A DNA stretch of 64,000 nt from an uncultured Burkholderiales bacterium (GTDB lineage: Bacteria; Pseudomonadota; Gammaproteobacteria; Burkholderiales; Burkholderiaceae_C). The notes beneath the pieces are model-generated. The model did no database searches. It had not been told where the DNA came from and was given only the letters and a program-made list of their open reading frames with translations. The position numbers were made by a program, and so were the translations under genes. Shown piece by piece: positions 8,974-24,394 of this stretch (position 1 is the stretch's first letter; each line of letters begins with the position of its first letter). The stretch covers positions 1 through 64,000 of the forward strand of contig CAILYC010000039.1 in NCBI GenBank assembly GCA_903838355.1, in the 5' to 3' direction.

Positions 8974-9027
8974 GCCACTGCGGGGACTTTCATTCAACTT
9001 TTCTTCTGAGAATATTCAGCTCCACCC

Positions 9028-9534
9028 ATGCCAAGCACCGACACTTTATCCTCTCAGGCTGATCGCTTGAACACCAAAGGCCCGAAGCTTTGGGTCGATG
9101 CTTTGGGTGTTTGGCATTTGAGTGTGAGCCTAGAGGTCCATGATCATGTGACCGTGGTTCGGGCCTTTCCCATCACGAGTCCAGACGATGGGGTATCCAT
9201 ATTGAGTCGAGATGGCAAAGAGCTCTGTTGGTTTGATTCCTTGGCCGCGATCGCAGGCGAGCTCAAAGAGGCTGTGCTGCAGTGCTTGGAGATGCGAGAG
9301 TTCATGCCTGAAATCTTGAAACTCGAATCTGTGAGCGGCTTTGTCACCCCATGCAACTGGCGCATCCAAACCAATCGTGGTGAGACTCAACTCCTTCTCA
9401 ATGGAGAAGAAGACATCAAACGGCTCAATGCCAACACACTCATCGTCTCGGATGCCTTTGGGGTACAGTTTTTGATCAAAGACTTGTCCAGCATGGACCG
9501 ATTGAGTCGCAAACTGCTGGATCGTTTTTTGTGA
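9028..9534 (+). CDS. DUF1854 family protein, cyanophycin-associated
   Basis: A 168-residue soluble protein with no signal peptide or membrane segment. The C-terminal half carries the family hallmarks: CWFDSLAAI, MREFMPEI, a W-R-I-x-T-x-R-G-x-T stretch, EEDIKRL, and the strongly conserved ending SRKLLDRFL. It follows the ABC gene by 54 bp on the same strand, so the two are probably co-transcribed. DUF1854 genes commonly accompany cphA loci in betaproteobacteria. No biochemical role is established to my knowledge; an accessory or regulatory partner of the ABC protein is a reasonable guess because the two genes travel together. Confidence 0.85.
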   Translation: MPSTDTLSSQADRLNTKGPKLWVDALGVWHLSVSLEVHDHVTVVRAFPITSPDDGVSILSRDGKELCWFDSLAAIAGELKEAVLQCLEMREFMPEILKLESVSGFVTPCNWRIQTNRGETQLLLNGEEDIKRLNANTLIVSDAFGVQFLIKDLSSMDRLSRKLLDRFL

Positions 9535-9764: not shown

Positions 9765-10145
9765 TCACATTTGTTCAAGCCACGACACATGCGCGCTCAC
9801 GACCAACCAGCGGTTGTCCTTCTTGATCCAAGTTTGGGTTTGCCGGCCGGCTTTGCCAGAACTCAAGTTGACATACTCAATATGGGTGCACCCTAGCGAA
9901 TCGCCGTAAGTGGTGATCGATTGTCGCTTGATGGTTCGGTTGAGTCCCTTGGGAGATCGAGAGTTGCGAAACTCTTGTATTTCAGCGTATCCGTACAAGT
10001 TCTCACCCGCGCCATACCGAATGGTGCGAGGATCATTCCAAAACAATCGGTCCAAAGTTTCAACATCATTGTTGACCAAGGCCTGTTCATATTCGGCAAA
10101 GACCAAGGTCAACTCTTGCAGTGTATTTGTCTGATCAATGATCAT
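9765..10145 (-). CDS. hpxZ: HpxZ-like protein (AtzH/DUF3225, SnoaL-like fold)
   Basis: A 126-residue protein of the NTF2/SnoaL-like fold. The sequence IIDQTNTLQELTLVFAEYEQALVNNDVETLDRLFW then RYGAGENLYGYAEIQEFR and the ending GRQTQTWIKKDNRWLVVSAHVSWL are typical of HpxZ of the oxalurate/purine pathway and of AtzH, reported to act on 1,3-dicarboxyurea in cyanuric acid breakdown. It is the last gene of the minus-strand arm, 22 bp after the DUF1116 gene. Its usual partners HpxX and HpxY lie on the plus-strand arm of the same cluster (20804-22402), which supports one shared pathway. Exact substrate here is unknown. Confidence 0.82.
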   Translation of the reverse strand: MIIDQTNTLQELTLVFAEYEQALVNNDVETLDRLFWNDPRTIRYGAGENLYGYAEIQEFRNSRSPKGLNRTIKRQSITTYGDSLGCTHIEYVNLSSGKAGRQTQTWIKKDNRWLVVSAHVSWLEQM

Positions 10146-10167
10146 GGAGGAGGGTGTTTCGGTTAGG

Positions 10168-11535
10168 TTAAAGATGGCTGGGATCTGGGGTGTGCAGTTG
10201 CGTTGCGGCTTGTGCGCTCAAAACTGGATCCAATTCGTAAACGCCACGACCCAAGAGTCCACTCACGCCATCATTGGCCAACATGGCGATGTTGATCAGT
10301 GGGTTGCAATGCAGCTCGACAATGCGAAGAACATCCAAGCCACAGCGTACCTTGGTCTCCTTCATGTCCTTTGCAACCTCGGTGGGCCCCAAGATACTGC
10401 CATTGAAATGGTCATGGTCCATGGCCATGATTTTCTTGGAGCGAGTGGCATAGTCTTGGGGGCAAAAGGGTTGTAAAGATTGCATGACCGTTGGGCTGGC
10501 GTTGATCAGTTGTCCGCCAAAGCCCATGGCATCAATCACACAACTGTCGCCCACGGCAGCTTCGATGGCAACGGTTGGATGGGCGTGAACAAAGCGTGTG
10601 CCCTTGGGGGCAGTTGAGGCTTGGCACAACCACTGCATTGGGGCTTGAGAGGTGGACAATCCCATGCTCTGTCCATTGCCACCCAGACGTGTGATGAAGC
10701 TGCAAAAGGGAATGGCCTCAATGCTGGTGAGCATCAATTTGCAAGCGGCCATCCAAGGTGTTAAGAAAAACCCTGGATTGCTTTTGATCAACTCCTCCAC
10801 GACGAGAGTTTGGTCGAGGGCAAATGAAGATTGCTTGAGTCGTGTATGAATCTCTTGGCCCAAAGCCTGCGTTGCTGCTGTCGTGCTTGAATGCAATTCG
10901 TCCCCGCCTTGGAGGCCCAATAAAGCGAAATCAAAGAGTTCTATTGGCATCTTCAATACAGCCATCATTGCACGGGTCAAGAGTGTGTCGCGCAGAGTGA
11001 GTGTGCTCAAGACCCCTGGGTTGTTGGTGCCAAATCGAATGTCCGCGCCCGGCCCACTTGCAAGCGGTGCAAAACAAGCGGGCAAAGTGGACTTGGCATC
11101 CTTCACGCAAAGCAAGGATGTTTTGGGTGAAATGGTGGCAGCCAGTGGGGTCACGCAGCGGAAATCTTGTGCAGGTTTAAGCTCAATCAGTCCACGCTCT
11201 AAAAGTGCCAAAACCTCTAGCTCGTTGTTGGCCCATCCTTCGTAAATCGCTGACAATACAATGGACGATTGAATGGTTTTGGGTAGACTTTTTGTGTCTT
11301 TGAAGGGAGGTCCTGCATGGAGCAGTGTGTAATTCTTGAGACCCAAAACCGACATGGCCGAACCAACTGCTGTGAGTTGAGGCCGGACACGAAGCATTTT
11401 TTGTGCTGCAGCCTCGTTGGCCAGTCGGTTCAATTGCTTGAATTCGTTCATTAAAACTTGATCCAAGCTTTCATCGGGTATTGGGGGCAACAATGCTGCG
11501 GTGTGTGGGATTTTTTCAGGCTTGACGTCTTGCAT
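10168..11535 (-). CDS. DUF1116 protein, AllG/YlbE-like
   Basis: About 455 residues belonging to DUF1116 (YahG/YlbE family). Typical segments are RPQLTAVGSAMSVLG, LLHAGPPF near the N-terminus, GADIRFGTNNPGV in the middle and LGRGVYELDPVL at the end. In E. coli the family member YlbE (AllG) is one of three proteins reported to form oxamate carbamoyltransferase, which splits oxalurate into oxamate and carbamoyl phosphate. Here neither FdrA/AllF nor an AllH (DUF2877) partner is in the window. It overlaps the end of the molybdenum-hydroxylase small subunit gene by 20 bp, so it is tightly coupled to it. The ATG at 11535 is preferred over an in-frame GTG at 11544. The function assignment is by analogy. 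Confidence 0.75.
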   Translation of the reverse strand: MQDVKPEKIPHTAALLPPIPDESLDQVLMNEFKQLNRLANEAAAQKMLRVRPQLTAVGSAMSVLGLKNYTLLHAGPPFKDTKSLPKTIQSSIVLSAIYEGWANNELEVLALLERGLIELKPAQDFRCVTPLAATISPKTSLLCVKDAKSTLPACFAPLASGPGADIRFGTNNPGVLSTLTLRDTLLTRAMMAVLKMPIELFDFALLGLQGGDELHSSTTAATQALGQEIHTRLKQSSFALDQTLVVEELIKSNPGFFLTPWMAACKLMLTSIEAIPFCSFITRLGGNGQSMGLSTSQAPMQWLCQASTAPKGTRFVHAHPTVAIEAAVGDSCVIDAMGFGGQLINASPTVMQSLQPFCPQDYATRSKKIMAMDHDHFNGSILGPTEVAKDMKETKVRCGLDVLRIVELHCNPLINIAMLANDGVSGLLGRGVYELDPVLSAQAATQLHTPDPSHL

Positions 11536-11992
11536 GCAATACACTCAAAATGGCCTTGACGATGCCACTGTATCCCGTACAACGGCATAAATTACCGGCC
11601 AATTCTTTTCTCACCCGCGCTTCATCGGCCAGTGCAATTCTGTTGACGATATCGTGCGCCGTCATCAGCATACCTGGTGTGCAGTAGCCGCATTGAAGGG
11701 CATGCTCTTTGGAGAATGCCTCTCTCAATGCAGACATGGTGTCATCGTTTTGAAAATCCTCAATGGTTCTCACCTTTTTGGATTCGCAAGAGGCGGCCAA
11801 GGTAATGCATGAACGTGCGGGTGTCCCTTCAATCTGTAAGGTGCACGCGCCACACACGCCATGCTCGCAGCCGAGATTCGTTCCTGTGAGCAGTAAATCT
11901 TCGCGTAAAAAATCTGCCAGACTCGTGCGCGCTTGAATCTGGCGATCAAGGATTTGGCCGTTAACGCTTAAGCTCAGGGTAATGGTTTGCAT
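11516..11992 (-). CDS. Molybdenum hydroxylase small subunit, two [2Fe-2S] clusters
   Basis: Electron-transfer subunit of a xanthine dehydrogenase/CO dehydrogenase-family molybdenum hydroxylase; 158 residues. The plant-ferredoxin-type cluster ligands are Cys42, Cys47, Cys50 and Cys62 (GCEHGVCGACTLQ). The second cluster, in the helical domain, uses Cys101, Cys104, Cys136 and Cys138 (CGYCTPGM and CRCTGY). All eight cysteines are present, so the subunit looks functional. It follows the FAD subunit gene by 18 bp and runs into the DUF1116 gene, forming the L-M-S order of separate-subunit enzymes. It passes electrons from the Mo centre to the FAD subunit. Confidence 0.93.
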   Translation of the reverse strand: MQTITLSLSVNGQILDRQIQARTSLADFLREDLLLTGTNLGCEHGVCGACTLQIEGTPARSCITLAASCESKKVRTIEDFQNDDTMSALREAFSKEHALQCGYCTPGMLMTAHDIVNRIALADEARVRKELAGNLCRCTGYSGIVKAILSVLHARRQA

Positions 11993-12010
11993 GACAGTTT
12001 TACTTCGGTT

Positions 12011-12856
12011 TTAACGCTGGATTTGATCTTGAGACTTGATCATTTGAATGGCCCGTGCAACAGCGACGACATGGTTTTGAAGTTCAAATGCATCTGCTTC
12101 CAAGCCGTGGTGGAGCAGTGACGATTGAATGGTGTTTTTATTGCAGTCGTTCAAAAGTGTCTTGGCGTCATCGATTAAAAGGGGTGTTGAGCTCGTTGCG
12201 CCCACAACCATGCGATACAGCCCAAGACTTTGAATTTGCAAGACGGCTGCGATGGATTGGGCGAATTCACCCGGTTTTTGGCATATTTTGTAGTACCCCC
12301 ACTGCGCATCGGCTGGAAAAGCCGTGATGGTAATGCGGTTGAGGATTTCATCTTCTTGCAGTTGCGTGGTGAACGCACCGAGCATGAAGTCGCTGGCTAG
12401 AACTTGCCGAGTTTGCACGCTGCCACTCGCATCTAGGCGCGCGAGCTCCAGTGTCGCATTGAGCAGCATCATGGTGCTCACCCAATCGGCCGCAGGGTCG
12501 GCGTGGCATAAACTGCCGCCCAGAGTGCCTTGGTTGCGGATGGCCCGGTAGGCAATGTTGGCCGCCACAAAGGGCAAGAGCCCATGGGTCACGTCGGGCA
12601 CCACTTTGTCTTCAATTTTTGCGTGGGTGATCAATGCCCCAAGGCTGAGTTTGGCGTCATGCAGGCGGTGTGATTTGAGTTCTGCCAATCGTTGAAGGCT
12701 GATCAATTGATCGGGCTGCGCCAGTCTTAAATTAAGCATGGGACCCATGGATTGCCCCCCACCCAGAAATTTGCTGTGGTGAGGACTTTGGGACTGAAGA
12801 GTCAAAGCTTGGAGAAGCTGAGTGGGCAGCTCAAAATCAAATGCGGCAGACTTCAT
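12011..12856 (-). CDS. Molybdenum hydroxylase medium subunit, FAD-binding
   Basis: A 281-residue FAD subunit of the same molybdenum hydroxylase. The flavin-binding signatures of the PCMH-type fold are present: GGGQSMGPMLNLRLAQP near residue 31 and IRNQGTLGGSLCHADPAADW near residue 105. The C-terminal CO_deh_flav_C-like part (KICQKPGEFAQSIAAV) is also recognisable. Length is normal for coxM-type subunits. Its ATG overlaps the end of the large subunit gene by four bases (ATGA at 12853-12856). It should take electrons from the iron-sulphur subunit and pass them to an unidentified acceptor. Confidence 0.93.
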   Translation of the reverse strand: MKSAAFDFELPTQLLQALTLQSQSPHHSKFLGGGQSMGPMLNLRLAQPDQLISLQRLAELKSHRLHDAKLSLGALITHAKIEDKVVPDVTHGLLPFVAANIAYRAIRNQGTLGGSLCHADPAADWVSTMMLLNATLELARLDASGSVQTRQVLASDFMLGAFTTQLQEDEILNRITITAFPADAQWGYYKICQKPGEFAQSIAAVLQIQSLGLYRMVVGATSSTPLLIDDAKTLLNDCNKNTIQSSLLHHGLEADAFELQNHVVAVARAIQMIKSQDQIQR

Positions 12857-15246
12857 GGTTGCATCACTCCAGCATGCCCAGCCATCTGAGCTTTGGCCTT
12901 TGCCAAAGCATTCACGATTTTTCTGGGGGTGATGGGCAACTCGGTCATCTCTACCCCATAAATGCGCAAGGCATCATTGACCGCATTGGCGATGGCGGCC
13001 GGCGGGCCAATGGCACCCCCTTCCCCAATGCCTTTTTGACCAAAACTCGTGTAAGGCGAGGGCGTCTCCAGATGAACAATGGTGGGGGTTGGGACTTCAG
13101 TAGCACCGGGCAAGCAATAGTCGGCAAGGGTTGAGGCCTGGGGTTGGCCTTGATCGTCATAGTTCATCTCCTCATAAAGTGCTGTTCCAATGCCCTGGGC
13201 TAAGCCACCGATGATTTGACCCTCCACGATCATGGGGTTGATCATGACGCCAGCATCTTCTGCAATGACGTAGTCTAAAATTTTGACCTGGCCCGTTTGT
13301 GTGTCTACACTCAGTGCAACAGCGTGGCAGGCATAGCTGAAAGTGCCGGTGTCGACCAAGGGTTTGTAGCCAGCGGTGACCTCGAGTCCTGCTGGATCTG
13401 CATCGGGGGGCAAGCGTTGGGGTTGGCGGTACCAGACATGACAAATTTCAGCCATGGTGAGACTTTTTTGACCATCTAGACTTTGAATGCATTGGTTGAC
13501 TGTATTCAGGTCACTGGGCTCGCTACAGAGTAAAAAACTTGCAATCTTGATGAGACGTTCGTGCAGTTGTTTGCAGGCCTGTGCCACAGCACCGCCAGAC
13601 ATCACCATGCAACGCGAACCCCACGTTCCCGTGGAGTAAGGCGTCATGGCGGTGTCGCCATGCAGCACCCTGACTTGACTTGGATCGATGCCAAGAATTT
13701 CATGGGCGACTTGGGATAAAGTGGTCTCCAAACCTTGGCCGTGTGAGTGAGCGCCAATGCGCAACTCGAGCAATCCGTCTGGTGTCATCCTGGCGTGGCA
13801 CTGTTCATGGCCTGGGACCATGGGGATGCCCCATCCATGATAGACCGATGTGCCGTGGGCCGCTTGTTCGCAATACACCGCTAGGCCCACGCCGATCAGC
13901 GCTTTGTCAGCGTCTTTTTTGTTGTCATGGCGTTGCAGATCCCGCCACTTCTGGAGGTCCAATGCCTCAATGGCTTTCTCGACAGCCAGGTGGTAGTTGC
14001 CCGAATCAAAATGTTTCCCCGTGATATTGTCATAAGGCATCTCATCTTTGGAGATGAGGCTGTTGAGCCTGAGTTGGTAAGGCTCAATGCCCATCTTTAT
14101 GGCCAAGGCATCCATCATGACTTCAAGAGCAAAACAAACATCGGTTCTGGCCACGCCGCGGTAAGGCAGAATCGGTGGTTTGTTAGTGGCCACAGACCAA
14201 GCGGTGCATTCATAGCCTTGCATTTTGTAGGGCCCCGGCAAGATGGACACGACTTGGGCTGCTTCCAAGCAGGCTGAGAAAGGGTAAGAGGAATAGGCCC
14301 CTGAGTCAACAGTGGCTTCGCACTCGATTCCCAAAAGCCGTCCGTGGTCATCACCATAGACCGTGATGACATAGGCGTGTTCTCTACAATTGGCATTGGC
14401 GGTGAGTTGCTCGCGGCGGTCTTCAATCCATTTGACCGGTTTGTCCAAATGCATGCACAACCAAGCCAGACAAATCTCTTCTGGCAGCAAGATGCCTTTG
14501 TAGCCAAACCCTCCCCCCACATCGGGGGCAACCACACGAATGCTGGCTTGGTCTAGACCCAAGCATTCGGACAGTCCTGCTCGGTTGATGTGCGGCATTT
14601 GCGCAGCACTGTACATGATCAGTTGCTCAAGTCGCGCATTCCATTGGCAGACCACACCACGGCCTTCCATCGGCGACATGACTTGTCTCGCAGTTTTGAG
14701 CTGTTTGGTGATTTTGTGCTTGGCACTGGCCCGTATTTGCGATAGCTCACCCGTTTTTTTGCTGGTTAAAAAGATGTTGTCCCCCCAGTGCTCATGGACC
14801 AAGGCGGGCGGTGCTGTGCGTGCTGTGATCATGTCCATGACACAGGGGATGTCGTCATAGTCAACCATCACTTGTTGGGCAATATCCTCGGCCTCAGCGC
14901 GAGAGGGGGCCACGCACATGGCGACCAATTCTCCGACTTGACGAACTTTTCCCTTGGCCAGTGGCCACTGATCACTGGCCTTGAAGCCTTCGAGCTGGGT
15001 TTGAGCTTGTATGGGTTTGACCCCATACAGGTCGTCCATTGTGAAGACCTGGCTCTCAAAACCAAGAGGTTTTTGAATGTTGCGCAAATGGGCATGCGCA
15101 ACGCTTGAGCGAACAAAAGCCACTTCGAGCATGCCGGAGACGTGAATGTTGGCAACGTACTCACCTCGACCCGATAAAAAGCGATTGTCCTCTTTTCTGA
15201 GAAGGCTCGCGCCAACCCCCAGCCTGCTGCTTTGGTTCTTGTTCAT
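12853..15246 (-). CDS. Molybdenum hydroxylase large (catalytic) subunit, form II type
   Basis: Catalytic subunit (797 residues) carrying the molybdenum-pterin cofactor. N-terminal domain starts RLGVGASLLRKEDNRFLSGRGEYV. Cofactor-binding segments include GGGFGYKG, HSHGQGLETTLSQVAHEILG and GTWGSRCMVMSGGA. The active-site loop reads PYRGVART rather than the AYRCSFR of true aerobic CO dehydrogenase, and the catalytic glutamate motif GQKGIGEGGAIGPP is intact. It is therefore a hydroxylase of an organic substrate, probably an N-heterocycle given its neighbours. The ATG at 15246 overlaps the metallohydrolase stop (TGATG); an upstream in-frame GTG at 15249 is possible. The MocA-like gene at 22419-23051 could mature its cofactor. 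Confidence 0.92.
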   Translation of the reverse strand: MNKNQSSRLGVGASLLRKEDNRFLSGRGEYVANIHVSGMLEVAFVRSSVAHAHLRNIQKPLGFESQVFTMDDLYGVKPIQAQTQLEGFKASDQWPLAKGKVRQVGELVAMCVAPSRAEAEDIAQQVMVDYDDIPCVMDMITARTAPPALVHEHWGDNIFLTSKKTGELSQIRASAKHKITKQLKTARQVMSPMEGRGVVCQWNARLEQLIMYSAAQMPHINRAGLSECLGLDQASIRVVAPDVGGGFGYKGILLPEEICLAWLCMHLDKPVKWIEDRREQLTANANCREHAYVITVYGDDHGRLLGIECEATVDSGAYSSYPFSACLEAAQVVSILPGPYKMQGYECTAWSVATNKPPILPYRGVARTDVCFALEVMMDALAIKMGIEPYQLRLNSLISKDEMPYDNITGKHFDSGNYHLAVEKAIEALDLQKWRDLQRHDNKKDADKALIGVGLAVYCEQAAHGTSVYHGWGIPMVPGHEQCHARMTPDGLLELRIGAHSHGQGLETTLSQVAHEILGIDPSQVRVLHGDTAMTPYSTGTWGSRCMVMSGGAVAQACKQLHERLIKIASFLLCSEPSDLNTVNQCIQSLDGQKSLTMAEICHVWYRQPQRLPPDADPAGLEVTAGYKPLVDTGTFSYACHAVALSVDTQTGQVKILDYVIAEDAGVMINPMIVEGQIIGGLAQGIGTALYEEMNYDDQGQPQASTLADYCLPGATEVPTPTIVHLETPSPYTSFGQKGIGEGGAIGPPAAIANAVNDALRIYGVEMTELPITPRKIVNALAKAKAQMAGHAGVMQP

Positions 15247-16520
15247 CACGCGGCCATCTCTAACTCAGACAATTGTGGCAATATATTGGCATTGGCGGGG
15301 TAATAAATACCTTGGCGCAAACAAAAGTCTGGACTCAAGAGTCGATCTGCTTTCACGCGTGTGCCTTCATTGTCTTTGAGCCACCACTTGCCTCGGTGGT
15401 CGTTCAAGACGGTGATATCGGCTGTGCTTGAGACCTTCAAGCACCCGACCTCTTCTCCCAAGCCCGCCATGGCCGCTGGGGCAGAGGTCACCATGGGAAT
15501 GATGTCTTGAAGTTTAAGGCCCAAGGCCAGCATGGTCGTCATGGTGGAGACCAATGAGAATTTGACGCTGCCAGCGAACATGTGCTCAGTGTCAGAATGT
15601 TCGTCGGGTGTTCCTGCGGGTTTGGGGATGTGACTGTTATAGCCATGCAAGTCCGCACCCAAGGTATCAGGAACAATGCCAGCATCCAGTGAAATGCGGG
15701 CCATGTTGAAGCTAAAGTGTGAACCGTGTCCTACATCGATTTTCAAGCCCCTGGCCATGGCCTCTTTAACGATCGGGTGAACTTGCCCTTTGCGGTTGAC
15801 AAATCCGCCTGGGTGACGTGTGAAAGGGTGCGCCAAAATGTCGCCTGGTTTTAACAGGTCGACCACTTGCTCCAGAATGGTGTCAGCATCGACACTTTGA
15901 TCGCCATCGTAGGGGACGGGCCAGAGTTGACCAAAATGGATGTAAAGCGGCAACTTGGTTTGTGTGGCTATTTCTGCGCAAAGCTCCATGACTTTCACGC
16001 CCCACCTGGCAAATCCACCCAATTCTGCATGGGCTTTGAGTCCTTTTACAATGTCTCGGTTGGCCATGGCGCTTTTGACGGTGGCGTCCACATCAAGGCA
16101 ATCTGGTTTATAAAGAGATGGGTAGTAATGTCCCTCTAGTCCTCCCACCAAATAGGAGGACAAGAAGGCAACGACCTTGCTTTTTTTGGACTCTACAACA
16201 TACCGTCTAAACGCGGGCAGGGTAATGCATGAGGGTCCTCCTTGGTCAATCAAGGTGGTCACGCCCGAGTAAACCCCTGAGAGGTCCGCATCCACTCCAA
16301 AACGCCCGGTGACCAAATCAAAAACATGGGCATGGGTATCGATTAGGCCTGGCAGAACCAACTTTTCACGGACTTGTAGAGTCTGGCTTGCCAAATTGGC
16401 GTCAATTTGAGGGGCAATGGCGACAATTTTGCCGTCCTTGATGGCGATGTCCATCACGCCATCGAGTTGCTGAGTCGGATCGATCACATGTCCGTGTTGC
16501 AGCAAAGTGTCATACATCAT
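15246..16520 (-). CDS. Amidohydrolase/deacetylase-family metallohydrolase
   Basis: About 424 residues of the amidohydrolase superfamily, close to dihydroorotase/dihydropyrimidinase-like and AHA_3915/EF_0837-type metallohydrolases. The metal-site motifs are visible: GLIDTHAHVFD after strand 1, LYIHFGQLW, HPFTRHPGG, DVGHGSHFSF and the aspartate motif GADLHGYNS. Such enzymes cleave cyclic amides or N-acyl groups. In this operon, opening of an oxidised heterocyclic ring is a natural guess. The start is placed at the first of two adjacent ATGs (16520); the frame stays open to 16541. It is the second gene of the minus arm, 83 bp after the DUF1989 gene, and overlaps the molybdenum hydroxylase large subunit gene. 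Confidence 0.82.
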   Translation of the reverse strand: MMYDTLLQHGHVIDPTQQLDGVMDIAIKDGKIVAIAPQIDANLASQTLQVREKLVLPGLIDTHAHVFDLVTGRFGVDADLSGVYSGVTTLIDQGGPSCITLPAFRRYVVESKKSKVVAFLSSYLVGGLEGHYYPSLYKPDCLDVDATVKSAMANRDIVKGLKAHAELGGFARWGVKVMELCAEIATQTKLPLYIHFGQLWPVPYDGDQSVDADTILEQVVDLLKPGDILAHPFTRHPGGFVNRKGQVHPIVKEAMARGLKIDVGHGSHFSFNMARISLDAGIVPDTLGADLHGYNSHIPKPAGTPDEHSDTEHMFAGSVKFSLVSTMTTMLALGLKLQDIIPMVTSAPAAMAGLGEEVGCLKVSSTADITVLNDHRGKWWLKDNEGTRVKADRLLSPDFCLRQGIYYPANANILPQLSELEMAA

Positions 16521-16603
16521 GGAGTTTCCAATCAAATGCAATGATGAAGGGTTGATGGGTGCTGTGCACTGAAGATGGGGGAGTGAAGGCCGTTCTAGCG
16601 CTT

Positions 16604-17227
16604 TTACTGTTGATCCCAGATCGAAACTTCGATGGGGGTTGGCTTGAAGCCGGCCGCTGCATTGTGTTCTTGAGGGCAGTTAGAGATGACGGCGATGATG
16701 GGCATTTCGGCACGCAGTAAGACATGGTCACCGGGTTTAGATGTGCTTGGAACAATTTCAACTTCGCCGTGAGGCCCGACTGTGACTCGCATAAAAAAAT
16801 TGATATTGGAGACTATGTCAGAAGTGGACATAGACCATTTGGCCAGTTCGGCGGTGAAGTTGGCGCGACAACTCTGGGTTTTGACAACGCCATAGCGCAC
16901 GTAGTCAATTTCATTGCTGCAGCAACCGGCCAAAGTATCGTGCAAGCCACAGGTGTCTTCAACCAGGGTGAACATTTTTTTTGCAAGATCAGAATAAATG
17001 ACGTGATTTTTTTCAATATAAAGTGATTTATTGAGCTTGACCGTATTGGGGATGTTGAGTCGATCGATAGGCAACTCGGCAGAGAAACACAAAAAATCGA
17101 CAGCTTGCTGGCCTTCAAGATCGATAATTTTTAAAAATTGCCCTTTCTCGATTCTTCGAGACCAACGACCCTTGGCGGCGATCACCTCTTGGTACAAGGG
17201 CTTGACGAGGGTTTGGGTTTGAGACAT
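16604..17227 (-). CDS. DUF1989 / urea-carboxylase-associated family protein
   Basis: A 207-residue protein of the family once called urea amidolyase-associated proteins (UAAP1/UAAP2). Members acting with guanidine carboxylase are now described as carboxyguanidine deiminase subunits. Likely metal ligands and core motifs are present: D91-T-C93-G-L-H96 followed by Cys101/Cys102 and N105, then C120-R-A-N-F, and NFFMRV further on. It is the first gene of the minus arm, reading away from the regulatory gap. Unlike the guanidine loci, there is only one DUF1989 gene and no carboxylase or allophanate hydrolase nearby. It may deiminate an amidine- or guanidine-containing intermediate; this is inference. 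Confidence 0.82.
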   Translation of the reverse strand: MSQTQTLVKPLYQEVIAAKGRWSRRIEKGQFLKIIDLEGQQAVDFLCFSAELPIDRLNIPNTVKLNKSLYIEKNHVIYSDLAKKMFTLVEDTCGLHDTLAGCCSNEIDYVRYGVVKTQSCRANFTAELAKWSMSTSDIVSNINFFMRVTVGPHGEVEIVPSTSKPGDHVLLRAEMPIIAVISNCPQEHNAAAGFKPTPIEVSIWDQQ

Positions 17228-17439
17228 GCGAAGATTCCTTCAGTAATAAAATGGATGCAAACATTGTTTCAATCGAAGCAATGTTGAGGTTCTTCTAGCA
17301 TAAGTCGAGCCAATGCCAATGCCAATGAGGTCTGCGCCAATGACCGATCATCAGCATGAGCGCTCATCAAGCGTGTCCATGAGAACAAAGATCAGTGCCT
17401 GTGTTTTTCTAGAAGGCCTTTAATTGGGCGTGAAGGTTT

Positions 17440-17510
17440 GCACCAATATGGATTTTTTATGGCACCAAAATGGATTGTTTATTTTTAGACGGCACCAAAA
17501 TAATATTTAT
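17440..17510. promoter_or_regulatory. Three NtrC-like binding repeats
   Basis: GCACCAATATGGATTTTTTAT (17440-17460), GCACCAAAATGGATTGTTTAT (17462-17482) and GCACCAAAATAATATTTAT (17492-17510) are direct repeats with 22- and 30-bp spacing. The NtrC consensus is TGCACC-N5-GGTGCA. The first two repeats match GCACC-N5-GG, and the third matches one half-site. They lie 98-168 bp upstream of the sigma-54 promoter, a normal distance for an enhancer-type activator site. Binding by NtrC is inferred, not shown. Confidence 0.6.
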
Positions 17511-17607
17511 GCAGGTATCTAGAAGAATATTTTGAGCTTGTTTCTCATCCTGTTCACACGAGTCTCGCACAAGACAGGGAGATCTATTTCATAACCTGAT
17601 AGGTCAC

Positions 17608-17623
17608 TGGCACATCAATTGCT
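17608..17623 (+). promoter_or_regulatory. Sigma-54 (RpoN) promoter
   Basis: TGGCACATCAATTGCT fits the -24/-12 consensus TGGCAC-N5-TTGCW exactly, with ten bases between the GG and GC elements. Transcription would start near 17634, about 110 bp before the binding-protein gene (17747), driving the plus-strand arm. Such promoters need an enhancer-binding activator, consistent with the NtrC-like repeats upstream. Confidence 0.75.
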
Positions 17624-17746
17624 AAACACTTGTGTGCGTTGAGTGGTTTGTTTTTTAAAGCCAAGCTTTGAAATCAGCACAAATGAATACACGATGTTTA
17701 TTTCATACGAATGCCAATTGTTCTCCTCTATTTAAAAGGAATTTTC

Positions 17747-18628
17747 ATGTTTTTACGTTCAGTCAAATCCAGTGCGTCTCAATCCAGTTCCCATGATTGG
17801 AAAAGAAAAATTGTCAAGCTCACAGGCTTTGGCGTCTTGGCTTCAGTGCTGACTGTTGCTCAATTGCATATCGTCCTAGCGGCGAGCTTGGATGAAGTCA
17901 AATCTCGTGGCTACATAGCCGTTGCCACAGAAGACGATTTCAAGCCCTTTGAGTTTGTGGAGAATGGCACCCCCACAGGGTTTGATACCGAGTTACTCGG
18001 TTTGGTTAAGAAAAAAATGTCCATCGATATCAAGCAAGACATCATGCCTTGGCCTGGTATTTTGCCCGGTGTTACCACCGGTAAATATGAAGCAGCGGTC
18101 ACAGCTGTTTTGGTGACAACTGAGCGCAAAGGCACTTTTGATTTCACCACGCCTGTGGCCGAGTCGACCACCTACTTCGCAACCAAAAAGGGCTCGAGCG
18201 TCAAGTCAGTTGATGATTTGGTGGGCAAAGTGGTCGGTGCTCAAACGGGAAGTGCGATGTTGGGCGACTTGAAAGCGCTCGACAGTGATTTAAAAAAGAA
18301 ACACGGTGGCAATGGAATTAAAGAAATTGTCGAGTATCAGTCTTATCCTGAAGCTTACCAAGATGTGGGCAATGGTCGACTCGACGCAGTGGCCAATACA
18401 CAAATCAATTTGAATTCATTGATTCAAACCCGGCCCGACATGTTTGTATTGGGTGCTAAGGTGGGTTCACCAGTCTACATTGCCTGGGCTTTGAAGAAAG
18501 GCAACACTGGGGTCCTCCAACTCTTGAATGGTGCGTTGTTGGATATTCGCAAGAGCGGCGCCATGTATCAATTGCAAAAGAAATGGTTTGGTGCAACATT
18601 TGAATCCATGCCCCAGTCTGTCAATTGA
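17747..18628 (+). CDS. Polar amino-acid-type ABC transporter, periplasmic binding protein
   Basis: A 293-residue solute-binding protein of the SBP_bac_3 family. A basic N-terminus with a hydrophobic stretch ending VLA-ASLDE (about residues 21-45) forms the signal peptide. The mature protein opens with the family pattern IAVATEDDFKPFEF and GTPTGFDTELLGLV, and continues with DFTTPVAESTTYFA and GAQTGSAM. The ATG at 17747 is chosen because AAAGGA precedes it at the right spacing; an upstream in-frame ATG at 17711 would add 12 atypical residues. It is first in a transporter operon under the sigma-54 promoter. Ligand unknown; the operon context suggests an amino-acid-like or ureide nitrogen compound. 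Confidence 0.9.
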   Translation: MFLRSVKSSASQSSSHDWKRKIVKLTGFGVLASVLTVAQLHIVLAASLDEVKSRGYIAVATEDDFKPFEFVENGTPTGFDTELLGLVKKKMSIDIKQDIMPWPGILPGVTTGKYEAAVTAVLVTTERKGTFDFTTPVAESTTYFATKKGSSVKSVDDLVGKVVGAQTGSAMLGDLKALDSDLKKKHGGNGIKEIVEYQSYPEAYQDVGNGRLDAVANTQINLNSLIQTRPDMFVLGAKVGSPVYIAWALKKGNTGVLQLLNGALLDIRKSGAMYQLQKKWFGATFESMPQSVN

Positions 18629-18643
18629 TCTGAGAGATCTTTA

Positions 18644-19288
18644 GTGAATGCCAATGATTATTTCAGTATTTTGCAAGGGGCTCTATTAACGGTGTCCTTG
18701 TCAATTGTTAGTTTAATCATTGGTATCCCCCTGGGTCTTGGTTTGGCACTGATTCGTTGGGCCAAGCTCCCTTTGTTAAAAGACCTCGCCCATGTCTATG
18801 TCAATTTGATTCGGTCTTGTCCCACTGTGACGCTGGTGTTGTTGATTTATTACGCACTGCCTGAGTTTGGTGTTTCTTTGAATCCTTTGCCAGCGGCGGT
18901 TTTGGCGCTCACCTTGAGCACCACTGCGTTCAATTGTGAGGTTTGGCGAAGTGCCTTGGTCGAGTTTCCCAAAGATCAGCTCGATGCAGCTTATGCCTTG
19001 GGATTGAACCAAATCAATCGTATGCGATTGATTGTGTTTCCGCAAATTTGGCGAGCAAGTTTGCCTGGCCTCTTTAACGAAATAACGCTTCAGATCAAAT
19101 CCACCCCAGCCGTTGCAGTTATCGGCATTGTTGAGATCACCCGCGCAGCTTTGCGGGTGGGCTCCAATACTTACGAGCCTTTGCCTCCCTTTATTTTTGC
19201 TTTGTTGATCTACAGTGCCATTGTCTTTGTCTTTTTGAAGCTTCAAAAGTATTTTGAGCTTCAAATGAAAGAAAAAGGCTACCTCTGA
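18644..19288 (+). CDS. Amino-acid-type ABC transporter permease (first)
   Basis: Inner-membrane permease of the HisM/GlnP family, 214 residues with about five transmembrane segments (VSLIIGIPLGLGLALI, VTLVLLIYYALPEFG, FIFALLIYSAIVFVFL among them). The cytoplasmic EAA-loop equivalent, DAAYALGLNQINRMRLIVFP, is present and should contact the ATPase. The start is a GTG at 18644, 15 bp after the binding-protein stop. The stop overlaps the second permease's ATG by one base (TGATG), so the two are coupled and probably form a heterodimer. Confidence 0.88.
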   Translation: MNANDYFSILQGALLTVSLSIVSLIIGIPLGLGLALIRWAKLPLLKDLAHVYVNLIRSCPTVTLVLLIYYALPEFGVSLNPLPAAVLALTLSTTAFNCEVWRSALVEFPKDQLDAAYALGLNQINRMRLIVFPQIWRASLPGLFNEITLQIKSTPAVAVIGIVEITRAALRVGSNTYEPLPPFIFALLIYSAIVFVFLKLQKYFELQMKEKGYL

Positions 19289-19944
19289 TGAATGATTTCG
19301 CCATCATTTGGTCGCACCGAGACTCGGTTTGGGTGGGGCTGCTCAATACCCTGGTTTTGATTGTGTTGTCGGGTGCGATATCCATTGCCGTTGGATTGTT
19401 GCTGACACCTGTGCTGGTCGGCTCCCACAAGATGCTGGCCAAGATGGTTCAGTTTTATGTCGATGCAATGCGATGCGTGCCTTTTTTACTGTTTGTGTAT
19501 TTGATCTATTTTGGTCTTCCTAGCGCGGGACTGAGGTTGTCCAATTGGGCTGCAGGAGCGTTGGCTTTGGTGCTCTACAACTCTGCCTATATGGCTGAAC
19601 TTCTCAGAGGTGCTTGGCTGGAATTGCCGGCCTCCATTTTGGATTCGGGCCGATCATTTGGTTTCACAGGTTGGGGTTTACTTCGCCACATCATGGTGAC
19701 ACCCATGTTGATCAGGGCCTTGCCCATGATCGGCAACCAGTTGATCCAGATTTTGAAAGACAGCGCGTTCTTGACGGTGATTGCTGTGAAGGAGCTGACT
19801 CATGAACTCAATGGTATTCAGTCGACTTATTTTATTCCCTTTGCCTCTTTTATTACCGCTTTGATCTTGTATTGGATCGTTTGCATGGTGATGGAAACGA
19901 TGATGGGTTCATTTGAGCAATTCGCCGCTTCACGCAGGCCTTAA
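19288..19944 (+). CDS. Amino-acid-type ABC transporter permease (second)
   Basis: A 218-residue paralogue of the preceding permease. It has a similar hydrophobic pattern (LNTLVLIVLSGAISIAVGLLL, FLLFVYLIYFGLP, FITALILYWIVCMVM) and an EAA-type loop, DSGRSFGFTGWGLLRHIMVTP. Its start overlaps the upstream stop by one base. Together with its neighbour it would form the transmembrane channel served by the ATPase at 19968. Confidence 0.88.
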   Translation: MNDFAIIWSHRDSVWVGLLNTLVLIVLSGAISIAVGLLLTPVLVGSHKMLAKMVQFYVDAMRCVPFLLFVYLIYFGLPSAGLRLSNWAAGALALVLYNSAYMAELLRGAWLELPASILDSGRSFGFTGWGLLRHIMVTPMLIRALPMIGNQLIQILKDSAFLTVIAVKELTHELNGIQSTYFIPFASFITALILYWIVCMVMETMMGSFEQFAASRRP

Positions 19945-19967
19945 AGCACAACTCCTGAGGATTGTCC

Positions 19968-20765
19968 ATGCAAGAGAAAACGCTCACTCCTGAATTGGTT
20001 TTGCAAATCAATGGTGTATCCAAAAATTTTTCAGGCAAAAATGTCTTGTCAGATGTATCTCTTCAGGTCAAAAAAGGCGAGACCGTCTGTTTACTTGGCC
20101 CATCGGGCTGTGGAAAGTCCACATTGCTCAGGTGCATCAATTGGCTGGAAGTGCCCGATGCTGGTAGTATTCATGTGGCCGGTGTTCGCATGGGTGTCAA
20201 AGACAATGGTGTCGTTAAAATGAGCGATCACGATCTCTCGGAAATGCGCTCGCGCATTGGTATGGTGTTTCAAAGTTTTGCCCTCTGGCCCCATTTGAAT
20301 GTTTTAGACAACGTGATGTTGTCCCCCATTCATGTGCAAAAACGCGATAAAAAGACGGTGCGTGAAGAGGCACTCAACGTCTTGCAAAGGGTGGGACTGG
20401 AGGAGCATTGCCAGCAATTCCCAGCCAAGTTATCTGGTGGGCAAAAGCAACGAGTGGGCATTGCTCGGGCCTTGGCCATGAAGCCACAGGTGCTTCTCTT
20501 GGACGAACCCACCAGTGCGCTCGACCCCATGCTGGTGGGCGAAGTGTTGTCGGTTATTCAGTCTTTGGCTCTTGAACAAGTCACCATGGTCATCGTCACC
20601 CATGAAATGCAATTTGCCAAACAAGTCTCCAATCGGGTTGTTTTCATGGACCAAGGTCAAGTCGTTGAGTCGGCCGATCCGGAGCGGTTTTTCAATCACC
20701 CACAAACAGAAAAAGCCCAAAAGTTTTTATCCCGTTTCCATGGTCTGGGTCACCCAATTCATTGA
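19968..20765 (+). CDS. Amino-acid-type ABC transporter ATPase
   Basis: A 265-residue cytoplasmic ATPase of the GlnQ/HisP class. It has Walker A GPSGCGKST, Q-loop MVFQSFALWPHLNVLDNV, signature LSGGQKQRVGIARAL, Walker B VLLLDEPTSALDP and the switch histidine in IVTHEM. The start is the ATG at 19968 with CTGAGG upstream; an in-frame TTG at 19962 is less likely. It completes a standard binding-protein/two-permease/ATPase importer and is followed 38 bp later by hpxX, tying uptake directly to the amidase step. Confidence 0.92.
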   Translation: MQEKTLTPELVLQINGVSKNFSGKNVLSDVSLQVKKGETVCLLGPSGCGKSTLLRCINWLEVPDAGSIHVAGVRMGVKDNGVVKMSDHDLSEMRSRIGMVFQSFALWPHLNVLDNVMLSPIHVQKRDKKTVREEALNVLQRVGLEEHCQQFPAKLSGGQKQRVGIARALAMKPQVLLLDEPTSALDPMLVGEVLSVIQSLALEQVTMVIVTHEMQFAKQVSNRVVFMDQGQVVESADPERFFNHPQTEKAQKFLSRFHGLGHPIH

Positions 20766-20803
20766 GTTGATTGTGTTCAATTCGTCACCAATAGGAGTCA
20801 TCG

Positions 20804-21019
20804 ATGACTGTGTCCATGAAAAATTATGTGAGTGTGGTCTCTGAAACCATTGATTTGCAACTCGATGCGTCTCAGATTGAGCGTGTCGCCATGCATTTGG
20901 AGCGCACCAAGCTCATGTGCAAAGAATTGATGGATTTGGATTTTTCACCAGAATGTGAATTGGTCGAAATTTATGTTCCTGCCCCTTACCCCGTGCAATT
21001 GCCCAATCGGACATTGTGA
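20804..21019 (+). CDS. hpxX: HpxX/AtzG-like small subunit (DUF4089)
   Basis: A 71-residue protein of the DUF4089 family, related to GatC. In cyanuric acid catabolism the homologue AtzG forms a tight complex with the amidase AtzE and is needed for it. In the Klebsiella hpx purine operon the equivalent pair is HpxX and HpxY. The helix-rich sequence LDASQIERVAMHLERTKLMCKELMD and the ending YVPAPYPVQ, rich in Pro and Tyr, fit the family. An AGGAG site precedes the ATG at 20804 by the usual distance. The amidase gene follows 33 bp later, as expected for a two-subunit enzyme. Confidence 0.85.
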   Translation: MTVSMKNYVSVVSETIDLQLDASQIERVAMHLERTKLMCKELMDLDFSPECELVEIYVPAPYPVQLPNRTL

Positions 21020-21052
21020 AGAGCACCTTTTTCTTTTGAGCACATTGTCCTG

Positions 21053-22402
21053 ATGAAACACACCATCCGCGATCGCATAGAGCAACAGATCCTAACAATA
21101 GAACGCCTCGATCCTGCTGTCAACGCATTCACGTTCAGAAGCTTTGAGCGAGCGCGTCTTGAAGCAGACCGTGCTGACGCCTTGATCAACAGTGGCGTGC
21201 CCAACTCACCTTTGTGCGGTGTGGGCTATGGCGTCAAGAATTTGTTTGATGTTCAAGGTGTTACCACCTTGGCGGGTTCCAAAATTCTGGCCCAATCGCC
21301 ACCGGCTTCAAGCGATGCCGTCTTGGTTGAACGTCTTCATCTGGCGGGCGCCATTATGCTTGGTTGCCTCAATATGGATGAGTTTGCCTATGGCTTTACC
21401 ACGGAGAACTCGCACTTCGGGCCCACGCGCAACCCGCATCGGCTCTCTTGCATTGCTGGAGGCTCCTCGGGTGGCTCTGGCGCGAGCGTTGCCGCTGGCA
21501 TGCTCCCTTTTAGCCTGGGCTCCGACACCAATGGCTCGATCCGTGTACCCGCTTCCCTTTGCGGAGTCTGGGGGATCAAGCCCACCTTTGGTCGGCTCTC
21601 GAGGCGCGGAACCTACCCATTTGTCAACAGCATTGACCATTTGGGCGTGTTGGCCAACAGTGTTGAATTGCTCAGTGCCAGTTATGACGCCATTCAAGGC
21701 CCCGACCCCTTAGATCCTGGGTGTGCGGCCGAGTCCATTCATGAAACTTTTACCAGTCACAAGCTTGGAATCGAAGGGCTGCGCATTGGCATTTTGGGGG
21801 GCTATTTTTCCGATCACGCATTGGTAGATGCTCACTCTTCGGTTGAAATGGTCGCCAAAGTTTTGGGCGCCTGTCAGACCGTGACATGGCCGGATGCCAC
21901 CCTGGCCCGGGCCGCGGCATTTGTGACCACCGCCAGTGAGGGGGGTATTTTGCATTTGGAAGAACTCAAACGTCAAGCCGATGAGTTTGAGCCTTTATCG
22001 GTAGACCGCTTCTTGGCCGGTGCTTTGCAGCCTGTAGAGTGGTATCTGAAAGCACAGCGATTCCGACGACTTTACCGGCAAAAGGTCAATGACTTGTTCA
22101 AGGACTGGGATATTTTAATTTGTCCTGCCACCCCAGTGCCAGCCATAGAAATTGGCACCGAATGGCTAGAAATAAACGGGCATAAGTTGCCTGCGCGTGC
22201 TGCGATGGGGATATTGACGCAGCCCATTTCCTATGCGGGTTGTCCTGTGGTCGCAGCCCCGGTTTGGCCGGACTCAGGAGAGGGTTTGCCCTTGGGTGTG
22301 CAGATTATCGCTGCGCCTTGGCGCGAGGATTTGGCCTTGAGGGTGGCGCATGTTTTGCAAGTGTCAGGGGTGTGTCGTGTGAAGTTGCCTGTTTTGAATT
22401 GA
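21053..22402 (+). CDS. hpxY: AtzE/HpxY-family amidase
   Basis: Amidase-signature enzyme of 449 residues. The Ser-cisSer-Lys triad is visible: Lys62 in GVGYGVKN, Ser138 in AGGSSGGSG and Ser162 in GSDTNGSIRVP. It is closest in pattern to the AtzE family (1-carboxybiuret hydrolase) and HpxY of the oxalurate branch of purine breakdown, and its partner subunit gene (DUF4089) sits directly upstream. Expected chemistry is hydrolysis of a carbamoyl- or carboxy-urea-type amide to release ammonia and carbon dioxide or a smaller acid. It ends the plus arm and is convergent with the MocA-like gene, the stops being 16 bp apart. Confidence 0.88.
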   Translation: MKHTIRDRIEQQILTIERLDPAVNAFTFRSFERARLEADRADALINSGVPNSPLCGVGYGVKNLFDVQGVTTLAGSKILAQSPPASSDAVLVERLHLAGAIMLGCLNMDEFAYGFTTENSHFGPTRNPHRLSCIAGGSSGGSGASVAAGMLPFSLGSDTNGSIRVPASLCGVWGIKPTFGRLSRRGTYPFVNSIDHLGVLANSVELLSASYDAIQGPDPLDPGCAAESIHETFTSHKLGIEGLRIGILGGYFSDHALVDAHSSVEMVAKVLGACQTVTWPDATLARAAAFVTTASEGGILHLEELKRQADEFEPLSVDRFLAGALQPVEWYLKAQRFRRLYRQKVNDLFKDWDILICPATPVPAIEIGTEWLEINGHKLPARAAMGILTQPISYAGCPVVAAPVWPDSGEGLPLGVQIIAAPWREDLALRVAHVLQVSGVCRVKLPVLN

Positions 22403-22418
22403 ACTCGGACATGGTTGT

Positions 22419-23051
22419 TTATCCCAAGCTCAGAGTCGGCCAAGTCAGTTCAATACCCGTGCGCTCTTTGAACGCCACCACATCCTCAGGTGTATCGAGG
22501 TCGGTGGCGTAATGGTCGTTGTCACACTCGAGGACCATCACTTCCTCTTCGTGCAAACGTCTCCATTCTTTGACACCCATATCGCTGGAGCATGCCAGAA
22601 TGTTTTCTCGGGCTTTGCCACTGAGCAACACGGGGTTGCCGGGTTGGCCTTTTACCCTTGGGTAAACCACCGAGATTGACTTGGCGCATTGATCGTAGAA
22701 ATGGATGAGCTCAGCGATGTCTGATGTTTCTATCAAGGGCTGGTCAGCCAAAGCCATGATGATCGCATCATGGGTGGGCATGAGGTGCAAAAGACCCAGG
22801 CGTTGTGATGAGACTTGACCGAGGTTGGGTTCTGGATTATCGATGAAGGTGACTGGACAATTCTTTAGGGCTGCTCTCACTTCCTTGGCGTAATGGCCTA
22901 CCACCACCACCAGATCGTGGACCCCAGCATCCAAGAGCGCCTGGGTGGTTCGAACAATCAAGGCTTTTCCATCAATTTCCAGCAAGCATTTGGGCTTGTA
23001 GCCCATTCGTGAAGCAGAGCCCGCGGCTTGAAGAACAGCACCAAGTTGCAT
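22419..23051 (-). CDS. MocA-like molybdenum cofactor nucleotidyltransferase
   Basis: A 210-residue NTP-transferase-fold protein. The nucleotide-binding signature LQAAGSASRMGYKPK (residues 7-21), the metal-site motif ALADQPLI and the MocA-type GNPVLLS are all present. MocA-type enzymes add CMP to molybdopterin to give the MCD cofactor used by CoxL-type hydroxylases. Because a molybdenum hydroxylase lies in the same cluster, maturation of that enzyme is the obvious role, although the gene is on the opposite strand from the plus arm and far from the hydroxylase genes. Other nucleotidyltransferases of this fold cannot be excluded. Confidence 0.78.
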   Translation of the reverse strand: MQLGAVLQAAGSASRMGYKPKCLLEIDGKALIVRTTQALLDAGVHDLVVVVGHYAKEVRAALKNCPVTFIDNPEPNLGQVSSQRLGLLHLMPTHDAIIMALADQPLIETSDIAELIHFYDQCAKSISVVYPRVKGQPGNPVLLSGKARENILACSSDMGVKEWRRLHEEEVMVLECDNDHYATDLDTPEDVVAFKERTGIELTWPTLSLG

Positions 23052-24086: not shown

Positions 24087-24148
24087 AAAGGGCAATCTCG
24101 GTTAAATCGAAGAGGGATTTGTTGTTGGGCGTGAGGGTGCTCAACGCA

Positions 24149-24188: not shown

Positions 24189-24240
24189 CAAGACACATTA
24201 CTGCAATTTTACTCCCTCGACAATTGTATGCGCGATCCTT

Positions 24241-24292: not shown

Positions 24293-24394
24293 TCATAAGG
24301 GTAAGCCACAAGCGCTCCCCATGCCGAAGTGGATATGATTTTTAAATGGCGAGGAAATCAATCAATGAGTGAAATTTTGACACAGAGGTTTTGA

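Follow-up and report, generated by a model that had tools for sequence, protein, structure and literature searches.

The oxidative pyrimidine pathway, whose enzymes are uracil dehydrogenase, barbiturase, and ureidomalonase, oxidizes a ring, opens it, and cleaves the resulting ureide. Other described systems that bear on the locus analyzed here are quinoline 2-oxidoreductase and the pyridine hydroxylases, with their three-subunit architecture; the PRK09237 amidohydrolases, which we take to be identical to cog3964 (for example, 2OGJ); the hpxWXYZ genes of Klebsiella pneumoniae; and AllFGH of Escherichia coli, an oxamate carbamoyltransferase that requires all three genes according to the available part of the report (PMC11326118). 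A gene cluster that can be compared with these systems lies at positions 9765 to 23051 of a 64-kb stretch of DNA from an uncultured Burkholderiales bacterium (hereafter, the window). The window begins at the first base of an 88-kb contig (CAILYC010000039.1). The source genome comprises 2.74 Mb in 72 contigs and is 87.6% complete and 0.26% contaminated.

The cluster is conserved and modular, carries a nitrogen-type promoter motif, and is of the kind of catabolic operons for nitrogen heterocycles (N-heterocycles). By our estimate, the chances are about even that its two back-to-back operons encode the uptake of a nitrogen-rich ring compound, its oxidation as an azaarene or a cyclic ureide, its opening to an oxalurate-type acyl-ureide, and deamidation under nitrogen scarcity. 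No described pathway with this gene set was found in the open-licence literature, as the preliminary description of this DNA had supposed.

Two divergent arms and their modular spread

The arms diverge from a shared intergenic gap of 483 bases (17228-17710). The left arm (minus strand) consists, in this order, of genes for DUF1989, the cyclic amidohydrolase (AH), CoxL, CoxM, CoxS, DUF1116, and HpxZ. The right arm (plus strand) encodes a binding protein, two permeases, an ATPase, HpxX, and HpxY, and a MocA-like gene on the opposite strand faces HpxY. Every gene named in the preliminary description was present and matched by profile searches. The features are as follows (ABC, ATP-binding cassette; NTP, nucleoside triphosphate).

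9765..10145, minus strand: HpxZ/AtzH-like protein (PF11533, 161 bits; NCBIfam HpxZ, 161.8 bits, cutoff 135)
10168..11544, minus strand: DUF1116 (AllG-like) protein, stand-alone type (PF06545, 147.8 bits, cutoff 27)
11516..11992, minus strand: CoxS-type [2Fe-2S] subunit (PF01799, PF00111)
12011..12856, minus strand: CoxM-type FAD subunit (PF00941)
12853..15249, minus strand: CoxL-type molybdopterin subunit of a probable N-heterocycle hydroxylase (PF02738, PF20256)
15246..16541, minus strand: AH, proposed ring-opening enzyme (NCBIfam PRK09237 family, 399.1 bits, cutoff 371)
16604..17227, minus strand: DUF1989 protein (PF09347, 191.6 bits)
17297..17312, minus strand: candidate left-arm sigma-54 promoter (GG/GC core intact, two mismatches elsewhere)
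17440..17501, plus strand: GCACCA in three direct repeats within the intergenic gap, candidate sites for an activator
17608..17623, plus strand: sigma-54 promoter motif TGGCAC-N5-TTGCW, TGGCACATCAATTGCT (no mismatch)
17711..18628, plus strand: periplasmic binding protein (SBP_bac_3) of a polar amino-acid-type importer (PF00497)
18644..19288, plus strand: ABC permease (PF00528)
19288..19944, plus strand: ABC permease (PF00528)
19962..20765, plus strand: ABC ATPase (PF00005)
20804..21019, plus strand: HpxX/AtzG-like small subunit (PF13318, 20.9 bits, below the cutoff of 24)
21053..22402, plus strand: HpxY/AtzE-type amidohydrolase (TIGR02715, 633.9 bits, cutoff 425.75)
22419..23051, minus strand: MobA/MocA-like NTP transferase (PF12804; TIGR03310, 124.8 bits, below the cutoff of 186.45)

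As called from the first possible start codons, AH and CoxL overlap by 4 bases, CoxL and CoxM by 4, and CoxS and DUF1116 by 29; because of these overlaps, the left arm looks like a single operon. A second metagenome-assembled genome (MAG; CAIPFK010000152, locus L042) has the identical gene order, the same outer neighbors, and an AH 85% identical to that of the window, which argues against an assembly artefact.

An AH alignment scan of the genome collection returned 405 relatives, the best 80 of which were retained together with flanks of at most 10 kb per side; 52 of these 80 loci reach at least 21 kb, so that the counts of neighbors are lower bounds. AH is accompanied by CoxL (at least 50% identity) in 63 of the best 80 loci, CoxS in 55, MarR in 46, CoxG in 44, DUF1116 in 30, an alpha/beta hydrolase in 14, DUF1989 and an importer binding protein in 13 each, an NCS1 permease in 8, an amidase in 7, HpxZ in 6, a 2-oxoglutarate (2OG) oxygenase in 5, an HpxW-like protein in 3, and PhyH in 2. 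CoxL and DUF1116 occur together in 21 loci, and the importer is present in 12 of the 13 that encode DUF1989. The preliminary description had called for a search for co-occurrence of its nine families: the genes do travel together beyond one strain, but not as a fixed set, L042 alone among the best 80 relatives encoding all nine. Thus, the gene set is modular, and its parts recur in other Proteobacteria. In a sample of the phylum, AH matches (E-value 1e-100 or better) were found in 11 of 398 genomes and, in a sample of the order, DUF1116 matches in 36 of 399, the source genome included in both cases.

The combinations vary among named hosts. The Caballeronia sp. M1242 plasmid encodes MarR, AH, CoxLMSG, DUF1116, HpxZ, amidase, PhyH, and the importer, and Caballeronia glathei (L111) encodes AH, CoxLMS, DUF1116, HpxZ, amidase, DUF1989, and an importer binding protein. 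An Azospirillum ramasamyi plasmid carries, opposite AH and in an order different from that of the window, DUF1116-MarR-HpxZ-amidase-CoxGSML-importer (branched-chain type)-GGT. Plasmids of Methylobacterium radiotolerans and a Geminicoccaceae encode AH, an alpha/beta hydrolase, CoxLMS, and an importer, with DUF1116 not among the listed genes.

On a quick AH tree (97 rows, 73 with long loci), in which each trait switches state two to eight times, HpxZ and the amidase vary in the same direction in 7 of 8 independent pairs (p 0.016). None of the remaining trait pairings that gave a result was significant on this tree; no correlated change was seen for CoxL, HpxZ, or HpxW with DUF1116. DUF1989 is linked to the importer by counts (10/10 versus 1/42 in the 52 long loci), the tree pairs (n=5, p 0.06-0.25) not being significant. 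In Bradyrhizobium/Xanthobacter-type loci, the place of DUF1116 seems to be taken by the alpha/beta hydrolase, none of the 52 loci having both; the tree adds no independent support to this replacement. The independence of DUF1989 from DUF1116 (Fisher p = 1, 52 loci) and the absence of HpxXY from most AH loci would suit two unrelated islands, DUF1989-importer-HpxXY and AH-CoxLMS-DUF1116, that came to lie side by side by accident. We consider such an accident very improbable: DUF1989 and the importer also accompany AH and CoxL in loci whose titles name Ramlibacter, Herbaspirillum, Caballeronia, and Bradyrhizobium, the arms share one intergenic region in L042 too, HpxZ sits in the left arm whereas HpxXY sit in the right one, and HpxZ co-varies with the amidase.

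Several further features were observed around these loci. On the minus strand of the window, two tandem cyanophycin-synthetase-type genes (1461-6241; PF18921, ATP-grasp, and Mur ligase domains) place a nitrogen-storage function beside the nitrogen-scavenging cluster. They are followed by an ABC exporter-type gene and a DUF1854 gene (6640-9534), a similar pair of which occupies the same place in L042. On the other side, TctC, 3-hydroxyisobutyrate-dehydrogenase-like, and Peripla_BP_6 genes (23097-26656), also kept in order in L042, adjoin the cluster and could belong to the pathway; a second catabolic-looking group encodes an HpcH/HpaI aldolase, Amidohydro_2, TctC, and an M24 peptidase (27018-32266). 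Among the relatives, L150 carries, beside MarR and AH, genes for an FAD oxidoreductase of the DAO type and for an importer-like protein (11249-12430), perhaps another entry module, and an acetamidase/formamidase-family gene is present in AH loci L110, L112, L097, L095, and L117. The titles of some environmental MAGs (L060, L066, L075, L081), such as Bordetella parapertussis or Klebsiella pneumoniae, seem out of place beside AH loci.

Sigma-54 promoter motifs

The motif at 17608-17623, 87 bases before the binding-protein gene, is the only exact match in the 64 kb to the sigma-54 consensus, used here as quoted in the accessible part of PMC5491218. At least one exact match occurs in 33 of 100 shuffles of the window, so that a single site is weak alone; this stretch is identical in L042. 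The site at 17297-17312, which precedes DUF1989, is likewise unchanged in L042, two-mismatch matches being as numerous in the window (61) as in the shuffles. Across relatives, sites with the GG/GC core were counted within 350 bases upstream of AH, the gene starts being estimated from alignments (94 loci given, one too short). Sites with at most one mismatch precede AH in 32 of 93 loci, whereas 2000 random placements gave 1.1 on average and never more than 7; the corresponding numbers are 9 against 0.19 for no mismatch and 48 against 5.0 for two mismatches. Nearly all of the sites (30/32) lie 14-77 bases before AH. The named hosts of the 32 loci are alpha-, beta-, and gammaproteobacteria, including 13 Bradyrhizobium, so that not all are independent. 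Such a site also precedes the binding-protein gene in 6 of 15 loci, L042 included.

Sigma-54 also serves activators other than NtrC. An NtrC-type pattern, GCACC-N5-GGTGC with at most one mismatch, was found near 16 of the 93 AH genes, where 1000 random draws gave 6.5 on average and at most 16, a weak enrichment, and five other NtrC pattern settings gave no enrichment in the 93 AH loci. Being enriched before AH, the sigma-54 motifs support a role in nitrogen supply; together with the motif between the arms, they are the best sequence evidence that the cluster may serve it, in keeping with the nitrogen scavenging proposed in the preliminary description. The accessible part of one Paraburkholderia sigma-54 paper contains no mention of xanthine dehydrogenase, amidohydrolase, oxalurate, or molybdopterin. 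As reported in the accessible part of PMC5491218, a Burkholderia ntrC mutant was impaired on parabanic acid as a nitrogen source.

Core enzymes and the described systems

AH belongs to the dihydroorotase-like superfamily. Its residues H70, H72, K169, H202, H238, and D297, aligned to 2OGJ, are unchanged in 97 of 97 rows and correspond to the set HxH, Lys, two His, and Asp, which we take to be the metal ligands of binuclear amidohydrolases. AH thus has its family and metal ligands in common with the PRK09237 amidohydrolases, but differs from 2OGJ, which it matches with only 123.6 bits, in belonging to a conserved sub-clade that is linked with a molybdenum hydroxylase.

That hydroxylase has the molybdenum, FAD, and [2Fe-2S] subunits of the xanthine oxidase family and the GxGEGG motif (GIGEGG at 740 in CoxL), presumably carrying the active-site Glu. 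CoxL is closest not to CO dehydrogenase but to quinoline 2-oxidoreductase, its best match in the PDB (1T3Q, 457.7 bits), with CO dehydrogenase next (396.2 bits). Aerobic CO dehydrogenase has an active-site Cys loop. CoxL carries PYRGVAR (at 362), as do 72 of the 74 matches that are at least 50% identical, and CO dehydrogenase or aldehyde oxidase was rejected on this loop, the ranking of solved relatives, and NCBIfam scores under the CO dehydrogenase cutoffs. A search for more distant relatives, at 45-51% identity, listed 12 on plasmid records; all five that were opened (Aminobacter, Paracoccus, and three Variovorax) lie near 2,5-dihydroxypyridine-type genes, namely, varying sets of dioxygenase, isochorismatase, and maleate-isomerase-type or alpha/beta hydrolase genes. 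In L134 and L135, a gene annotated as leucyl aminopeptidase is presumably the dioxygenase. The assignment of CoxLMS to the N-heterocycle hydroxylases, made from the sequence at the outset, is supported by this kinship. Unlike quinoline 2-oxidoreductase and the pyridine hydroxylases, the window enzyme is paired with a cyclic amidohydrolase. On Sinorhizobium meliloti pSymA (L131), a CoxLMS set adjoins the F420-type genes cofC and cofD and a gene for an F420-dependent oxidoreductase. For the MocA-like protein (22419..23051), we propose a role in molybdenum cofactor maturation.

The kinship of CoxL would also suit a pyridine or pyrazine carboxylate as the substrate: two hydroxylations would yield a cyclic imide of the 2,6-dihydroxypyridine type or a cyclic oxamide of the 2,3-dihydroxypyrazine type, which AH would open before Hpx-type amidases strip off the amide nitrogen. 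A pyridine or pyrazine imide is the best fit to the hydroxylase's kin, and nicotinate-type genes adjoin AH in Azospirillum brasilense, which could point to pyridine. Even so, we regard this route as unlikely. No nicotinate-type gene is listed for the similar AH locus of A. ramasamyi (37 kb covered), and a ring with a single nitrogen gives no reason for HpxXYZ and DUF1116, of which DUF1116 fits worst.

DUF1989 (207 residues, with the DUF1989 domain only) retains the three zinc cysteines and is the single PF09347 match in the source genome, 87.6% complete. The carboxyguanidine deiminase CgdAB, with which the preliminary description had equated it, needs two different DUF1989 subunits, so that this lone gene does not support the equation. 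In the trimethylamine N-oxide (TMAO) demethylase, DUF1989 is joined to a GcvT domain and contains a proposed iron-ligand His, according to the available part of PMC12560246. TMAO-type demethylation was rejected for the window protein, which has no GcvT domain and has Thr at the aligned iron-ligand position (residue numbers of the paper transferred to the PDB chain with an inferred offset of 22). Seven Bradyrhizobium-type loci (L068, 2475-4940, and its kin L074, L076, L089, L090, L106, and L119) carry three DUF1989 stretches each, only some of which keep all zinc cysteines; a RidA-type gene lies near the importer in eight Bradyrhizobium-type loci.

DUF1116 shares the AllG domain with E. coli AllFGH. 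Its AlphaFold model (pLDDT 86.4) matches 3CLQ with TM 0.82-0.91, and a fold search for a distant functional relative returned, at E 0.001, only 3CLQ, whose function is unassigned. Unlike the E. coli system, that of the window comes without AllH, AllF, or carbamate kinase over the cutoff. AllH had no match in any of 15 genomes or records (two of them single plasmids; source genome 87.6% complete), and AllF had none over the cutoff of 433 bits in the same 15; partial AllF matches, of 49 bits at most, were obtained for 13 of them and likewise for 9 control genomes in which nothing exceeded the cutoff. Carbamate kinase was found over the cutoff in 0 of 9 genomes, with one partial match containing a stop (G400). 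Therefore, DUF1116 is not the known oxamate carbamoyltransferase, and the suggestion that it works as AllG does in E. coli oxalurate cleavage was dropped. It is 24-32% identical to 25 high-scoring AllG-type loci (L002-L026), a type that was read about 3.6 kb wide. Among 11 low-scoring DUF1116 loci examined, 8 encode AH, and L031, L032, and the 5.6-kb contig L036 lack it.

The HpxXYZ layout of the oxalurate system, with HpxX directly 5' of HpxY and HpxZ in addition, recurs in the window. HpxZ and HpxY are 44% and 53% identical to their K. pneumoniae counterparts. HpxX is the weakest call, falling under the Pfam cutoff and being 25% identical to Klebsiella HpxX over 51 residues; it directly precedes HpxY, as in Klebsiella, and a 72% identical copy occupies the same place in L042. 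A PF13318 profile search of the source genome gave no match but, having given none in the controls either, carries no weight. HpxW-like genes occur in AH clusters of Azospirillum, Variovorax, and Pseudorhodoferax. The A. ramasamyi GGT is 54% identical to its counterparts in Variovorax and Pseudorhodoferax, which lie between AH and DUF1116, and matches K. pneumoniae DNA (55%, two pieces, no gene listed) directly before hpxX, an AtzE-family gene, and hpxZ; this position and an hpxW label in Paraburkholderia (57%) suggest that GGT is HpxW. With HpxXYZ in the window and HpxW-like proteins in sister clusters, the early proposal of an oxalurate-like ureide intermediate gains in plausibility. Klebsiella (L132) resembles the window in having HpxX before HpxY, an HpxZ, and, adjacent to them, an ABC importer of the polar amino-acid type, but the window has no close HpxW, and the 25.6 kb of L132, whose gene table is incomplete, list no CoxLMS, PRK09237 amidohydrolase, DUF1116, or DUF1989. 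L132 comes from a 5.37-Mb K. pneumoniae record that is filed as a plasmid.

The importer binding proteins of the window and Klebsiella are 26% alike over 152 residues. In binding proteins of the polar amino-acid transport (PAAT) type, an Arg holds the carboxylate and an Asp the amino group. The window protein does not have this full pattern: the Arg is kept, whereas all 16 AH-locus proteins compared (the window and 15 relatives) have Thr in place of the Asp, and the Klebsiella hpx importer has Gly there. The combination of the kept Arg with Thr suggests as ligand an acid that lacks an alpha-amino group.

Importers of the pyrimidine type, found in some AH loci (NCS1 in 8 of 80, NMT1-like in seven), are consistent with an oxidative pyrimidine route, in which CoxLMS would be a uracil (or carboxyuracil) 6-hydroxylase forming barbiturate, AH a barbiturase not of the AtzD type, and DUF1116, HpxXYZ, or the alpha/beta hydrolase a ureidomalonase. 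The logic of ring oxidation, ring opening, and ureide cleavage would be that of the described pathway, from which the window cluster differs in that no AtzD-type barbiturase turned up in its profile scans. C6 of uracil, an sp2 carbon beside nitrogen, is normal chemistry for this hydroxylase class, so that barbiturate and ureidomalonate suit the enzyme better than parabanate, and AH falls in the dihydroorotase-like superfamily. A phosphoribosyltransferase-domain gene lies near AH in L149, L054, and L077, but it is weakly adenine-like rather than uracil-like. HpxXYZ and HpxW are associated by name with oxalurate and oxamate, the window importer is of the amino-acid type, and no such genes were found in the open-licence literature, all of which makes the pyrimidine route improbable in our judgment.

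Proposed pathway and its significance

From the observed genes, synteny, co-occurrence, promoter motifs, and active sites, we infer the following reactions and their order for the pathway through an oxalurate-type acyl-ureide. The island, probably under sigma-54, would import a small acidic N-heterocycle, on which DUF1989, linked to the importer, would act first, in a reaction of unspecified type. CoxLMS would then hydroxylate a ring carbon adjoining nitrogen, with the MocA-like protein aiding cofactor making, and the binuclear AH would open the resulting cyclic imide or ureide to the oxalurate-type acyl-ureide. HpxXY may free the terminal amide nitrogen as ammonia, and HpxZ may handle the N-carboxy product, leaving an oxamate-like amide. 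DUF1116 would act on the same ureide or a neighboring one; because AllF and AllH are missing, hydrolysis is more likely than transfer to phosphate.

The oxalurate-oxamate pair is indicated alike by HpxXYZ, by HpxW, and by the AllG fold. Oxalurate in its cyclic form is parabanate. At neutral pH, parabanate hydrolyzes to oxaluric acid, according to the available part of PMC5703782. As a first guess, and a rather doubtful one, the intermediates would be parabanate, oxalurate, and oxamate; barbiturate and ureidomalonate are the second guess.

Several points weigh against the oxalurate-type pathway. The C5 of hydantoin is sp3 and a poor site for a molybdenum hydroxylase, so that a parabanate route needs another precursor; we know of no simple hydroxylase substrate that leads to parabanate, nor of a substrate or activity for any core enzyme. 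Besides the nicotinate-type genes beside AH in A. brasilense, a hydroxylase 59.5% identical to that of the window has no AH listed within 14 kb on S. meliloti pSymA, and neither a hydroxylase nor DUF1116 accompanies AH in 8 of the 80 loci. HpxW-like, HpxZ, and amidase genes are rare in these loci (3, 6, and 7, respectively), and the best HpxW match in the source genome, at 36%, is no close copy. The window's nearest relatives (L042-L052) have no sigma-54 motif with at most one mismatch directly before AH; in the window and L042, DUF1989 stands between the gap and AH. In addition, the Burkholderia ntrC mutant grew better on biuret and uric acid, as given in the accessible part of PMC5491218. 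Two further candidates were rejected on the available parts of the respective literature: riboflavin/lumichrome catabolism, which involves different genes and hosts, and a purine route with a new carbamoyltransferase, which belongs to another enzyme family.

In its broader form, the proposal is of a sigma-54-controlled pathway, widespread in Proteobacteria, that oxidatively degrades either a cyclic ureide or a base of the pyrimidine type. In it, a cyclic imide would be formed by an enzyme resembling quinoline oxidoreductase, a new PRK09237-type parabanase or barbiturase would open it, and the stand-alone DUF1116 would cleave the ureide as a single protein; this we advance tentatively, as possible at somewhat less than even chances. 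If it is true, the stand-alone DUF1116, the single DUF1989, and the PRK09237 sub-clade, all without a clear role, would join one shared pathway. Many of the 405 loci, 80 of which were examined, would then gain a nitrogen source now hidden under names such as xanthine dehydrogenase family protein. The pathway could also put names to the genes for parabanate use, the NtrC-dependent phenotype described for Burkholderia in the accessible part of PMC5491218.

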